Shown here in pieces: positions 666 to 7,784 of a stretch of 10,284 bases of DNA. Under the pieces are notes generated by a model that saw only the letters and a program-made list of their open reading frames with translations, searched no databases and had not been told where the DNA came from. This DNA is from Sphingomonadales bacterium (lineage in GTDB: Bacteria > Pseudomonadota > Alphaproteobacteria > Sphingomonadales > Sphingomonadaceae): contig JAGPVK010000205.1 of assembly GCA_018067055.1 (NCBI GenBank), positions 1 through 10,284 of the forward strand, in the 5' to 3' direction. Made by a program: the position numbers and the translations under genes. The number at the start of each line of letters is the position of its first letter. The stretch's first letter is position 1.

Positions 666-2153
666 TCAGGCAAGGGACCATAAAGGCAGTGCGCCATAAG
701 CGGTCTGCAATTCGCCAATCTCCTCGATCGCCGGACTGGCCGATTGCAGCATCAGCACCATCGCCGATTTCCAGTCGGTCAGAACTGCTCCCCCGCTTGA
801 CGCACGCGCCAGATCGCTGGTCTGTTCCAGCAAGGAGGCCAGTGGCCGTTGTGGGTCGATGATATCGATCAGCAGGCTGATCCTGCTTTCCCCATCATGC
901 TGCAACAGCAACCGGCTATCAGATATCAGCTGCGCGATATCGGTTGAAATTCTGTATCGGGCGTCGCCGGCTGACTCGAAATCAACCGCGCTGTCGGCAA
1001 GCGGTGACAGCGCATCCCGATCCGCATTATCAACCCACAATATCGCGGCAATTTCCCTGGTTTCTGCTCCGGAGTTGGCAATGATCGAATGGTGATCCGC
1101 ATTGCGGACCACATCTATCGTAAACTGGTCGTGACCGGTTTCGGACCAGACCAGATATTGGCGGCGCGGTTCATCGTCCCGGCCAGTGATCGTGATCGCC
1201 TTTGGCCTGCTCTTCAGCACTCCGGCATTGCGAACGCACTGGCCCATCGCAACCCGATCGGCCAACTCCACCGCGACCGCCAGCGGCCGTTCTTCCTCAT
1301 CGGGCAATTCGGTCAGCACATCCAGTCTGGACGCCACCTCGATCAGCGCATCGAACCGGCCGAGCCAATGGTCGCCAAAGGGCGCAACCGACAGTTCGCG
1401 GAAACGGTCCACCGGGTAGGGCAAGGTGATCTGCAATTCCGCGCCCGCCCGGTGCAGCGCTTCGGCGATCAATATGTCTGCCCCTGCTGCCAATGCCCCA
1501 AAGCCGAACCCCGGCTGCTCCCGCGCGATGATCGCGTTGATCTTATCGGCAATTTTCGGATTCTGGTCGTCGAGCCCGATGATACCGCTGAAATAGAGAC
1601 TGGGCGGTGGACGATGCCGGTCCAGCCAGGCGGCGTCCCTGCCCTGTTCGGCAAGGATCAGCTCAAACTGGCCGATGGTGGCGGCATGATCTTCCCAGGC
1701 TTGCGGCAGTTTCGATATTCCATCGGCCAGTGCCGCGCGGGCGCCGGTTTCATCGCCAAGGAGCAGCATCGCCTCCGCCCGGGTCGCGGCGCGCCAATAG
1801 GCATTTTCGCCTTGCCCCGGATCGTCATCGAGCAGCGCCATGGTCTCTTGAGCAAGTGCCTTCGCCCTTTCCGGCCTGCCGCCCAGCAGTGCCAGCGCGG
1901 CGGCATTGATCAGCGGATAGCTGTCCCGCTCCAGCCCGGCAGCAGCAGCATAAGCAGAAGCCGCTTCACCATAGAACCGGGCACGGTCAGCCCCGTCGGC
2001 TGCTTTCGCCTGATCCTTGAGCAGGCGACCCTTCAGAGTCAGCGCCTTCGGATCATCCCCCCGTTCATCCCAGCCCGAAGACTGAAACAAGGCCCAGGCC
2101 CGCGCCGGATTCCCGGCACGGGCGATGGAGAGGATTTGGTGGAGGGCGATCAA
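666..2153 (-). CDS. TPR/SLOG-like protein, candidate nucleotide sensor
   Basis: This 495-residue protein is the last gene of the TIR operon. Residues about 1-175 are alanine-rich TPR-like helices (KGRLLKDQA near 41, YPLINAAALALLGG near 79, YWRAATRAEAMLLLGD near 119), resembling the TRAFs-binding/DUF4071 type. Residues about 186-255 resemble a Rossmann-like SLOG fold: LYFSG at 186-190, then GALAAGADILIAEAL at 219-233, then LPYP at 244-247. That order fits an N-terminal strand, a glycine-rich nucleotide-binding loop with helix, and a following strand. The C-terminal 240 residues are unassigned. The start is TTG, because a TAA stop lies immediately upstream in frame and GGGGA is well placed as a ribosome binding site. 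No signal peptide or membrane segment is seen. SLOG proteins in conflict systems bind or make nucleotide-derived signals, which suits a TIR partner. The domain call is by pattern only. Confidence 0.75.
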   Translation of the reverse strand: MIALHQILSIARAGNPARAWALFQSSGWDERGDDPKALTLKGRLLKDQAKAADGADRARFYGEAASAYAAAAGLERDSYPLINAAALALLGGRPERAKALAQETMALLDDDPGQGENAYWRAATRAEAMLLLGDETGARAALADGISKLPQAWEDHAATIGQFELILAEQGRDAAWLDRHRPPPSLYFSGIIGLDDQNPKIADKINAIIAREQPGFGFGALAAGADILIAEALHRAGAELQITLPYPVDRFRELSVAPFGDHWLGRFDALIEVASRLDVLTELPDEEERPLAVAVELADRVAMGQCVRNAGVLKSRPKAITITGRDDEPRRQYLVWSETGHDQFTIDVVRNADHHSIIANSGAETREIAAILWVDNADRDALSPLADSAVDFESAGDARYRISTDIAQLISDSRLLLQHDGESRISLLIDIIDPQRPLASLLEQTSDLARASSGGAVLTDWKSAMVLMLQSASPAIEEIGELQTAYGALPLWSLA

Positions 2154-2180
2154 TTATTTTCCCCAGTCAATCCTGGAAAC

Positions 2181-2858
2181 TCAAGGTGGCGTTCCCCCAC
2201 CATCCGGATATCCGACATCTGGGTCGATAATTATCGGTATGAACCTATCGATATTATTTTCTGTAGAAACGATATCAAGGTGAATATTGAATGGGATACT
2301 CTTTCCCTCATGGTGCACTTTTAATTTATGACCATCAACGATGAAATATGCCACGCGGCTGACTGTACCTTCTTCAACGGTATTATATGTATCAGGAACA
2401 ACGGTACCATCTGTCAAAACACGTTTGGCATCAAACGCGATCTTGTTGCTGTCGTCGGTTGCATCTGCACCATATCCCGACTGAACTGTAAACGGGTCAT
2501 CCACATGGCAGAAACGCCAATTGTCATGTTTTGACGAAACCCTGAATGCAACATACACGAGTTCCTCAAGTCTGAGTGAAAGCGATGATCTATATTTTCT
2601 ACCCGGCGGTCGATCGATTTTCTTTCGGGGGGCTGGGTCATTCCCGCTTGCGTAACTAGCCAATAGCTCGCGAAAATGAAGTTCGGGGTCATCAGTCCTC
2701 AATTTCTCCCGACCATATTTATTGTCCCGATAAATTATTTCAATTTTTTTTCCATTGCCGGTAATCTTGATTTCCACATCAACAAATATCGCAATAGTTG
2801 GAATTTCCGTATCAGATATAGAAGCCGTCGGCTCATGATCCCTTGATTTAGTTCCCAT
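2181..2858 (-). CDS. Uncharacterised protein between TIR and SLOG-like genes
   Basis: I cannot assign a function to this 225-residue protein. It looks soluble and rich in beta strands (IPTIAIFVDVEIKI near the N-terminus, RVAYFIVDGHKLKVHH and IPFNIHLDIV later), with a basic proline-containing linker around RKKIDRPPGRKY. It ends in a strand and glycine/proline tail, PIIIDPDVGYPDGGG. Other visible marks are WRFCHVDDPF in the middle and a run of acidic residues before RVLTDGTVV. The ATG start lies 11 bases inside the TIR gene, preceded by GGGAAA, which implies translational coupling. It is followed after 27 bases by the SLOG-like gene. Its DNA is much more AT-rich (about one third GC in places) than the distal gene (about two thirds). 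Its place in the operon suggests it works with the TIR protein, perhaps as an adaptor or ligand-binding part, but that is inference. Confidence 0.75.
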   Translation of the reverse strand: MGTKSRDHEPTASISDTEIPTIAIFVDVEIKITGNGKKIEIIYRDNKYGREKLRTDDPELHFRELLASYASGNDPAPRKKIDRPPGRKYRSSLSLRLEELVYVAFRVSSKHDNWRFCHVDDPFTVQSGYGADATDDSNKIAFDAKRVLTDGTVVPDTYNTVEEGTVSRVAYFIVDGHKLKVHHEGKSIPFNIHLDIVSTENNIDRFIPIIIDPDVGYPDGGGTPP

Positions 2859-4431
2859 TTTTATTTCCCTTTTCGATCATTTGGCTAGATGTTCGGACTA
2901 GCCATTTTCCCCATTTTGAATTTTCTGGATCTCGTTTGGTTAGCTTGCTCGCCAACCGGTTCGCTCGCGTTGTATATGACCTGGCGGAATCAAAGTTACC
3001 CAGATCATTGTGCAACTCTCCCAGGGTCATAAGCACCCTCATCCATTGATCTGCCACATCCATATTCTGCTGTTCTTCGTTGAACATGGACTCAAGTAGC
3101 TTTTCCTGATTCTGGTAATCACGAAGTGCGCCATTGCTATCGTTAAACTTGAGCTTCGCCTCAGCGAGCCAACCTAATCTATTTGCAACATTCTGAATCG
3201 CAATCTTGCTTGCCGGAGTCCGTTCAAGGACAATTTCCATGGCATCTAAAGATGCCTGACAATATTGCACTTTTGGCGTGGCATTGTCTGATCGGCGAAG
3301 TTCCAATGTGCACAAATTTCCATCGGCATAGCCCTTCTCCCGCAACCAAACCAAATCAGAAGAATCTATGGCCACCAATTGGTCTGCCAACAATTTGTAT
3401 CGCCCCCAAAACTCACTGGCATGCATCCATTTGTTCTGCATATAAGCCACATACCCAACCCAATATTCACTTTGCGCATGCCCGAAAATCCGGTCCGGAT
3501 TCTCCGGATCCCTTGCCAGCAAAGCCGCCGTCACCCGGTGCGCCTCGGTGAATTTCGCCAGCGCCTTGTCCAGATCCCCGCGTTTCTCGTCATCCTCCCC
3601 CATCGCGTGCAATATCCGCGCGCGGCGTTCCAGGCTCTCGGCGGGCATATCGGACAGGTCGGCCTGATCGTCATAATAATCCATCGCCCGTTCGTTGACC
3701 TTGGTCATCACATCCAGCCGGCCGACACCCTTCAATTCCGTCCGCAAATCGGTCAGCATATATTCGACCAGCCCTTCGGCTTCGGCTTGCTGATGCTGCG
3801 CTTCGTTGCGCGACTGGATTGCGTAAATTGTCATCCCGATCATCGCTAGCAGCGCGACCAGCGCGCCGCCCGTGACCGCCATCACGCGGCGAATGCGACG
3901 GGCCGCATCGCGCTGGACCAGCGCGTCGAGTGGCACCCCGGCGATACCCGCGACAATCTTCAGAAAGCCCAGCCGCCAGCCATCGCCCTGCTTGCGCAGG
4001 TCTGCCGCCAGTGGCTCCGCACCGTTTCGCAGCGCTGCGGGGAAAGCCTCCTCCGGCTCGCCGCGGACCAGCGCCGCCAGCACCGGCCGATCCGGATGCA
4101 GCGCCCGGAACAGTTCAATTTCGCGCGTCACCCAGATCGAAGCCCTGGCGTCTGGCGAGCAGATCACCACCAGCACCTGCGACCCGGCCAGCGCCTGCTT
4201 TACCGATTCCGACAGGTCCTGTGCGGCTGGCAGATCTTCACGATCGCGGAATATCCGTCCGAGACGGCCGTTGTCCTGGTTATCAATCCGGTCAGCCTGC
4301 AGATGCTGCGGCAGCCGGTAGGTTTCGATTTTGCGATGCAGTTTTTGCGCGATCGCGGCATCGGCATGGCTGTAGCTGACAAAGGCGCGAAAATGCACCG
4401 CGAGCGGATCAGATTTCTCTGCTTCTGCCAA
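2848..4431 (-). CDS. TIR-domain protein with transmembrane segment and TPR-like C-terminus
   Basis: This 527-residue protein begins with a TIR domain at about 13-140. Visible parts are the first strand RAFVSYSHAD (15-24), the loop RDREDLPAAQDLSESV (62-77), the strand VLVVICSPDA, and SIWVTREIELF (98-108), in which Glu104 after Trp100 sits where catalytic TIR NADases carry their glutamate. A basic stretch RRIRR leads into one hydrophobic span at about 183-205, so the TIR domain probably lies at the inner face of the membrane. A coiled linker (RNEAQHQQAEAEGLVEYMLTDL) and TPR-like helices follow to the end. The TTG start is supported by an in-frame stop 8 codons upstream and GGGG before it; a GTG 11 codons later is the alternative. 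TIR enzymes cleave NAD or make cyclic ADP-ribose isomers, but activity here is inference. Bacterial TIR-TM-TPR proteins of this style are common and mostly uncharacterised. Base composition drops from GC-rich to AT-rich around residue 315. Confidence 0.85.
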   Translation of the reverse strand: MAEAEKSDPLAVHFRAFVSYSHADAAIAQKLHRKIETYRLPQHLQADRIDNQDNGRLGRIFRDREDLPAAQDLSESVKQALAGSQVLVVICSPDARASIWVTREIELFRALHPDRPVLAALVRGEPEEAFPAALRNGAEPLAADLRKQGDGWRLGFLKIVAGIAGVPLDALVQRDAARRIRRVMAVTGGALVALLAMIGMTIYAIQSRNEAQHQQAEAEGLVEYMLTDLRTELKGVGRLDVMTKVNERAMDYYDDQADLSDMPAESLERRARILHAMGEDDEKRGDLDKALAKFTEAHRVTAALLARDPENPDRIFGHAQSEYWVGYVAYMQNKWMHASEFWGRYKLLADQLVAIDSSDLVWLREKGYADGNLCTLELRRSDNATPKVQYCQASLDAMEIVLERTPASKIAIQNVANRLGWLAEAKLKFNDSNGALRDYQNQEKLLESMFNEEQQNMDVADQWMRVLMTLGELHNDLGNFDSARSYTTRANRLASKLTKRDPENSKWGKWLVRTSSQMIEKGNKNGN

Positions 4432-7289: not shown

Positions 7290-7784
7290 TCACTGAATTT
7301 CCCCGACGCTCGTGTATATCAATCTGGTTTGCATAACTTTTGATGGATTGTAAATGTTTCGTAAGTCGACCAGCACGTCGCCCTTCATTACATGGGCAAG
7401 CTTCTTCAAATCCAGAATATGGAATGCATCCCATTCGGTGAAGAGGACGACCGCATCCCCATCTTTTCCAGCATCATAGCTGCCGCTTGGCATCTCGACT
7501 GCTGGCTTTATTTCTCGCGCCCATTTTATTCCCTCGGGATCATAGACTGTCACTTCTGCTCCAGTGTCAATTAATGTTTACGCGATCACGATCGAGTGTG
7601 CGTCTCTCATATTATCAATATTGGGTTTGAAATTAAGTTCCAGCAAAGCCACTTTTTTACCGCGCACGCCCCGATCCAGCGCTTGAATGACCTTGCGGTC
7701 CATCGCCCGTGTGCGTTGGTCATTTACCTTCACCACGGCTTCGAAGATGCGGGCCGGGCTATCATTGTCCGATGCGGATTTCAT
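7290..7784 (-). pseudogene. ugd: UDP-glucose 6-dehydrogenase remnant
   Basis: Only the C-terminal portion (about 165 codons of a usual 430-440) remains. The first piece (7784-7581) carries RIFEAVVKVNDQRTRAMDRKV and VRGKKVALLELNFKPNIDNMRDAHSI, the linker and start of the C-terminal domain. The second (to 7290) carries YDPEGIKWAREIKPAVEMP, DAVVLFTEWDAF and VLVDLRNIYNP. Both are in one frame, separated by a single TAA (7580-7578) where related proteins have glutamine, so CAA to TAA is the simplest event. Near-invariant positions have changed too (family GLTFKPNTDDMRDAPSI against ELNFKPNIDNMRDAHSI). A TAG precedes the first piece and nothing resembling the NAD-binding domain or catalytic-cysteine region lies upstream, so the gene is dead. 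A GDP-mannose dehydrogenase origin is less likely given the DLRNIYNP ending. Confidence 0.9.

Follow-up and report, generated by a model that had tools for sequence, protein, structure and literature searches.

Organization and conservation of the locus

In this work, we have used sequence comparison and structure prediction to analyse a TIR-containing gene cluster in a 10,284-bp stretch of DNA from a Sphingomonadales bacterium (contig JAGPVK010000205.1, assembly GCA_018067055.1). This stretch, hereafter the window, is a complete contig from an assembly that is 80% complete; among named relatives, Parasphingorhabdus and Sphingorhabdus are the closest. It carries on the minus strand a three-gene operon coding for a protein with a TIR domain, a transmembrane (TM) segment and TPRs (the TIR protein), a middle protein, and a TPR-S protein (the distal protein). 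The TIR protein (527 amino acids (aa), 2848–4431) matches PF13676 (E 3.2e-11), PF08937 (E 8.2e-9) and TPR_2 (E 1.4e-5), its TIR domain lying at ~3988–4383, a hydrophobic stretch at ~3817–3885 and the TPR module from ~3771 down to 2851. The middle gene (225 aa, 2181–2858) overlaps the TIR gene by 11 bp and is followed by the distal gene (495 aa, 666–2153). Tail-to-tail with the operon, across a gap of 10 bp, a plus-strand gene at the contig end (2–655) codes for a Crp/Fnr-family regulator. Since the same gene order was found in many other genomes, it is not an assembly artefact.

Among 98 relatives (own genome counted), 38 have a match to the distal protein and 33 to the TIR protein, and a plain sequence search matched the middle protein in only six. 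When public genomes were scanned with the distal family, 267 relatives emerged, and the best 80 were kept for the synteny counts; by their record titles these loci belong mostly to Sphingomonadales, with some Caulobacterales. A TIR gene lies upstream in 74 of the 80 loci and a middle gene is present in 75 (52 recognised by hidden Markov model and 23 by position), while a Crp/Fnr gene stands beside the distal gene in 71, in 68 of them tail-to-tail within 400 bp and in 3 co-directionally; it is absent from nine, two of which are ended by a contig edge. No other flanking gene cluster is common to more than 5 of 74 loci, and the unit therefore consists of four genes. An earlier note on this DNA, made from the sequence alone, had proposed a three-gene operon; conserved co-occurrence of the three genes is borne out by these counts, and the unit has to be extended by the Crp/Fnr gene.

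Two loci of the same genus (L032 and L034) have a 337-aa TIR gene immediately before a TPR-S-SLOG-cyclase gene, without a middle gene; the cyclase motifs are present and no Crp gene is found in the 1.5-kb flank. Classing all of L030–L036 as two-gene TIR and TPR-S loci is ruled out, since in the 1.5-kb flanks TIR adjoins TPR-S only in L032 and L034.

The TIR protein and a variable, probably exchangeable cassette

The TIR protein scores 36.2 bits against PF08937 (ThsB_TIR), above the cut-off of 21.2, and the glutamate that the earlier note had placed at the nicotinamide adenine dinucleotide (NAD)ase position, Glu104 (codon 4120–4122), is kept in 71 of 72 TIR sequences. We infer that Glu104 is catalytic and that the protein has NADase activity. 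In agreement with the same note, domain profile scans matched neither a SIR2 nor a nuclease domain in the three operon proteins; sequence searches of the PDB with the three window proteins gave nothing useful. TPR modules resembling the one in the TIR protein also occur in L232–L237 behind different N-terminal domains, several of which look TIR-like or winged helix-turn-helix/NTPase-like by eye.

The most striking feature of the operon, missed by the earlier note, is a sharp-ended variable cassette (2152–3471, minus strand), which comprises the C-terminal half of the TPR module of the TIR protein (from ~residue 330) and the entire middle gene. When DNA identity to five same-genus relatives was averaged in 60-bp bins, it was 59–96% from 4431 to 3472 (mean ~82%) and 27–51% in each bin from 3471 to 2152, and it was back to 89% in the bin after 2152, at the start of the distal gene. 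At the protein level, the TIR protein was compared with five relatives in bins of 15 residues: mean identity is 48–97% as far as residue 330, where it falls abruptly from 69% to 20%. Identity over residues 1–150 is 71–85%. The GC content of the window is ~44% in the cassette against ~63% in the flanks, and it drops over this stretch in 6/6 genomes. In 6 of 10 same-genus relatives the distal protein is 74–78% identical to that of the window, and the middle protein 22–27%. A separate swap of the cassette was seen in another clade (L090 versus L092 and L095). We infer that the cassette is a module swapped by recombination between conserved flanks.

The two parts of the cassette also vary together. 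For the pairwise comparison, L114, L119 and L143 were left out of 72 TIR proteins at E<1e-80 (71 loci and the window); across the resulting 69 loci (2,346 pairs) the C-terminal part of the TIR protein and the middle protein co-vary with r 0.85 and partial r 0.71 (permutation test, 0/999 permutations). The cassette most likely encodes a matched pair that sets specificity. Matched variation is also a trait of cognate inhibitor pairs, and together with the overlap of the middle and TIR genes it would suit a polymorphic effector–inhibitor pair of the toxin–immunity or kin-recognition kind rather than a sensor: the middle protein would restrain the TIR enzyme through the matching TPR half, and mismatch or loss would lead to NAD depletion. 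We consider this unlikely, since the supposed toxin, the TIR domain, sits in the constant part of the protein, since conserved synteny with a SLOG reader and a regulator suits signalling better, and since L032 and L034 have a TIR gene directly before the TPR-S gene without any middle gene.

The cassette also bears on whether the locus is concerned with invaders at all. A regulatory or stress system, whose real output would be the Crp/Fnr protein, is suggested by the presence of this partner in 71/80 loci and by a mostly chromosomal location in many named Sphingomonadales and some Caulobacterales. However, a variable 1.3-kb cassette, patchy presence (38/98 relatives) and non-conserved flanks typify conflict systems, and a purely regulatory role seems to us decidedly improbable.

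The middle protein and its possible link to self-cleaving proteins

The middle protein scores 19.1 bits against PF20301, below the curated cut-off of 25. In plain searches it matches the PF20301 protein P0005 (E 5.8e-4) and a place in G033 (E 5e-10) that is PF20301 by profile, and 68 of its 72 aligned relatives match PF20301 at E≤1, in a set that was partly picked via PF20301 members. On sequence homology through such intermediates, the middle protein is placed with PF20301 as a diverged relative. Its predicted model (predicted local distance difference test score 90.7) is a small beta-sandwich, with a low-confidence Pro/Gly tail beyond Asp212-Pro213 (codons 2220–2225). The best fold matches of this model, obtained with a second-look structural aligner, are SO1698, PixA and MakD; Foldseek alone gave no significant match, and the middle-family profile found in the PDB only a chance-level ribosomal match. 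Asp212 and Pro213 are the sole invariant residues in the 72 sequences (72/72), the next acidic columns being Asp214 at the start of the tail (59/72) and column 195 (Asp/Glu in 57/72). The earlier note had kept this gene in the operon and had missed its family, its modelled beta-sandwich and its invariant Asp-Pro.

The pattern [ILVF]DP is missing from the last 60 residues in 13 of the 75 middle genes in the 80 loci. Two of these (L127 and L128) have an Asp-Pro outside the pattern, L147 is probably a wrong open reading frame (ORF), and six end in a sequence of the H-G-G-[IV]-H-P type. Tails of this type mark a subtype of middle proteins (L093, L094, L099, L100, L104, L126, L136 and L146), of which 6/8 lack [ILVF]DP.

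The Pfam name of PF20301, 'Predicted novel nucleotide synthetase', would make the middle protein the producer of the messenger. Neither the model, whose best matches are the beta-sandwich folds named above, nor the residue conservation, with Asp-Pro alone invariant and no conserved set of metal-binding or transfer residues apparent, gives support to this assignment, and we regard it as very improbable.

SO1698, of the DP-EP family (PF08985), is described as self-cleaving (Osipiuk et al. 2012, as cited in PMC11655445). Classing the middle protein as DP-EP was dropped, because the profiles of the two families did not match (hhalign probability 1.1); PF08985 is also not among the 12 families listed for the 72 middle-family members at E≤1. 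The link between both families comes from their partner genes. SO1698-type genes are rare, being found in 1 of 200 genomes of the phylum and in 14 of 148 genomes in the order of that one. In all 14 loci the gene just upstream encodes a protein of 1,051–1,141 residues with a TPR region, and these regions match the TPR-module profile of the TIR protein with E-values of 1e-34 to 1e-46 in a small ORF set. The arrangement in this other order (L190, L205–L217) is invariably a gene for a large TPR protein and then the PF08985 gene. Trans_reg_C and nSTAND1 domains were present in 5/5 large TPR proteins scanned, and the one small protein of a PF08985 locus that was scanned had no PADLOC match at E≤0.01.

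In genome G766 (L230), the small gene after a TIR-TM-TPR gene has a DP-EP-like end, and its product compares with DP-EP at an hhalign probability of 85.7 (PF08985 E 0.0092, below the cut-off) and does not match the PF20301 profile (probability 0.8). This is the only DP-tailed next gene in the eight loci with a related TPR module that were taken beyond Sphingomonadales and the DP-EP set (L230–L237): in L231 the next gene has no DP tail, in L232 and L237 the TPR gene reaches the contig end, and in L233–L236 no DP-tailed next gene was assignable.

The middle and DP-EP families have in common the fold, the type of partner and, perhaps, a D-P-x-[VI]-x-N-like end. Possibly the middle protein works like DP-EP, and the shared partner gene is independent support for this; self-cleavage of the middle protein is predicted by this analogy. 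Several points speak against the likeness: profile-level similarity is absent and the window protein is longer than DP-EP; at its end the structural alignment is shifted by one residue, model residue 213 and not 212 pairing with chain residue 116; DP-EP has Ser two residues ahead of the Asp, where the window protein has Ile (I 44/72, T 16/72 and S 4/72 in the middle family); and 13/75 middle genes do not show [ILVF]DP.

The distal protein and the Crp/Fnr regulator

The TPR-S part of the distal protein (1614–2153) scores 31.6 bits against PF20308, above the curated cut-off of 27.6. In the predicted model this part is followed by a SLOG-type fold of the YpsA type (1107–1610) and, at residues 365–495 (669–1061), by what appears to be a class III nucleotide cyclase fold; PF00211 is above cut-off in 5 of 10 scanned relatives. 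The window lineage has not kept the metal Asp motifs and the transition-state Arg motif of the cyclase, and has largely lost the stretch between the two Asp motifs. The TPR and SLOG-like segments that the earlier note had recognised in this protein are both found, next to a decayed third domain that it had overlooked. With the three genes conserved together and the segment modelled as SLOG, neither of the two outcomes that the note had named as refuting has come about.

The Crp/Fnr protein has both a cyclic-nucleotide-binding fold (PF00027, E 3.2e-12) and a Crp helix-turn-helix (PF13545, E 1.1e-7), both above cut-off. The cyclic-nucleotide pocket motif of Crp is FGE..R[ST]. In the window protein this motif has decayed to FGAFP (window sequence FGAFPHERIVISD), with loss of the pocket Glu and of the R[ST] pair of cyclic-nucleotide-binding Crp. 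Both ends were compared in 96 loci with Crp, reduced to 88 distinct ones, a cyclase being scored as intact by its WGD motif and a length >540. In all eight loci with the WGD motif the neighbouring Crp keeps both pocket Glu and R[ST] pair, and in the 80 without it Crp has neither (nominal Fisher 1.6e-11, the loci being related and independent events few). The remaining two cyclase motifs, checked for the eight positives, were found in 8/8; these are L025–L029 and L173–L175, the latter from another family and with a co-directional, upstream Crp gene. Read most simply, this means that a cyclic nucleotide formerly connected the cyclase with Crp, a link since lost at both ends.

Proposed mechanism

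We propose, with moderate confidence, that the four genes form a TIR-to-SLOG conflict system, most likely anti-phage. Its constant parts would be a membrane-anchored TIR enzyme with the first TPR half, a TPR-SLOG reader and a Crp/Fnr regulator; its variable part would be the 1.3-kb cassette, with the second TPR half and the middle protein as a probable cognate pair determining what is sensed. Upon sensing, the TIR domain would turn NAD into a messenger, to be bound by the distal protein at its YpsA-like SLOG domain, and the output would reach the Crp/Fnr protein by way of the cyclase-derived C-terminal domain. Where relatives have intact cyclase motifs, a cyclic nucleotide probably serves this last step; in the window lineage, where cyclase and Crp pocket are both decayed, it is probably a protein contact or uses another ligand. 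The first and last steps, sensing and output, are suggested by comparative evidence, and the enzymology is presumed from the named families. The nucleotide-signalling defence system that the earlier note had suggested gains partial support from TIR, SLOG and synteny, with NAD signalling and defence still presumptive.

Several observations weigh against this proposal. The right flank of the window carries polysaccharide genes and no recognised defence island, and the middle and distal proteins have no PADLOC match at E≤1; the distal protein matches one plasmid record and zero phage records. In other clades (e.g. L115/L148) cassette and flanks are similarly identical, and exchange is thus not universal. 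Of 11 same-genus loci, eight have a nearest middle protein of just 28–35% identity, and rapid divergence without exchange could lie behind part of the cassette pattern. The cyclase–Crp comparison is built on related loci, with the intact state in just two lineage groups. Intact cyclase motifs without Crp within 1.5 kb occur in L164–L172, L176 and L030–L036, so the cyclase is not always paired with a Crp neighbour, and no TIR gene was seen within 1.5 kb in L173–L175.

The proposed system resembles Thoeris (ThsB TIR and ThsA SIR2-SLOG) in its TIR enzyme, above the ThsB_TIR cut-off, and in its SLOG-bearing reader, here of the YpsA type. It differs in that the reader, without a SIR2 match, is TPR-SLOG-cyclase-like, and in its two extra genes, membrane anchor and variable cassette; NCBIfam Thoeris type III ThcB4 scores 19.4 bits, far below its cut-off of 220. 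From class III cyclases, whose fold residues 365–495 of the distal protein share, and from Crp, the window lineage differs by the lost catalytic and pocket motifs. Conflict systems with TPR-S (PF20308) and pNTSase1 (PF20301) were reportedly described by Burroughs and Aravind in 2020 (J Bacteriol), and their TPR scaffold is said to have been predicted to recognise NAD-derived signals. The window locus is similar in having PF20308 in the distal protein and a middle protein placed with PF20301, and parts of the operon have been seen before, since both are existing families. The SLOG and cyclase domains behind the TPRs, the Crp partner, the cassette and the beta-sandwich Asp-Pro fold come from the present analysis. 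A literature search, whose coverage excludes the most relevant paper, found no description of the operon, of its cassette, or of cyclase and Crp pocket being lost together.

A fuller version of this scheme, which we offer tentatively and think rather doubtful, has a TIR core with an exchangeable sensor cassette, a self-cleaving middle protein, a two-messenger relay and a plug-in detector. The middle protein would be an Asp-Pro self-cleaving beta-sandwich, and its clipping or the release of its Pro/Gly tail would license the matched TPR half to switch on the TIR enzyme; SLOG would relay the NAD-derived messenger to the cyclase, which would make a cyclic-nucleotide second messenger for the dedicated Crp. 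The window lineage would have retained the pathway and lost the second messenger at both ends, and the same TPR and Asp-Pro module would serve nSTAND1 proteins in other Pseudomonadota. If true, this module would be a general plug-in detector for various immune enzymes.

To our knowledge, how TIR-based bacterial immune systems recognise their triggers is largely open. The sharply bounded cassette marks the part under pressure to change, names two proteins that need to match, and lends itself to swap experiments in which close relatives trade cassettes. That cyclase motifs and Crp pocket were lost together suggests that a two-messenger relay is seen here at different stages, and an SO1698-type link to TIR and nSTAND1 proteins would place that peptidase family in a biological setting.

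In the right flank of the window, an 87-aa ORF (7290–7553, minus strand) matches UDP-glucose dehydrogenases in their C-terminal UDP-binding domain alone (PF03720) and appears to be what is left of a longer gene; close by are genes for a family 4 glycosyl transferase and for an NTP-transferase/GMP-type protein.

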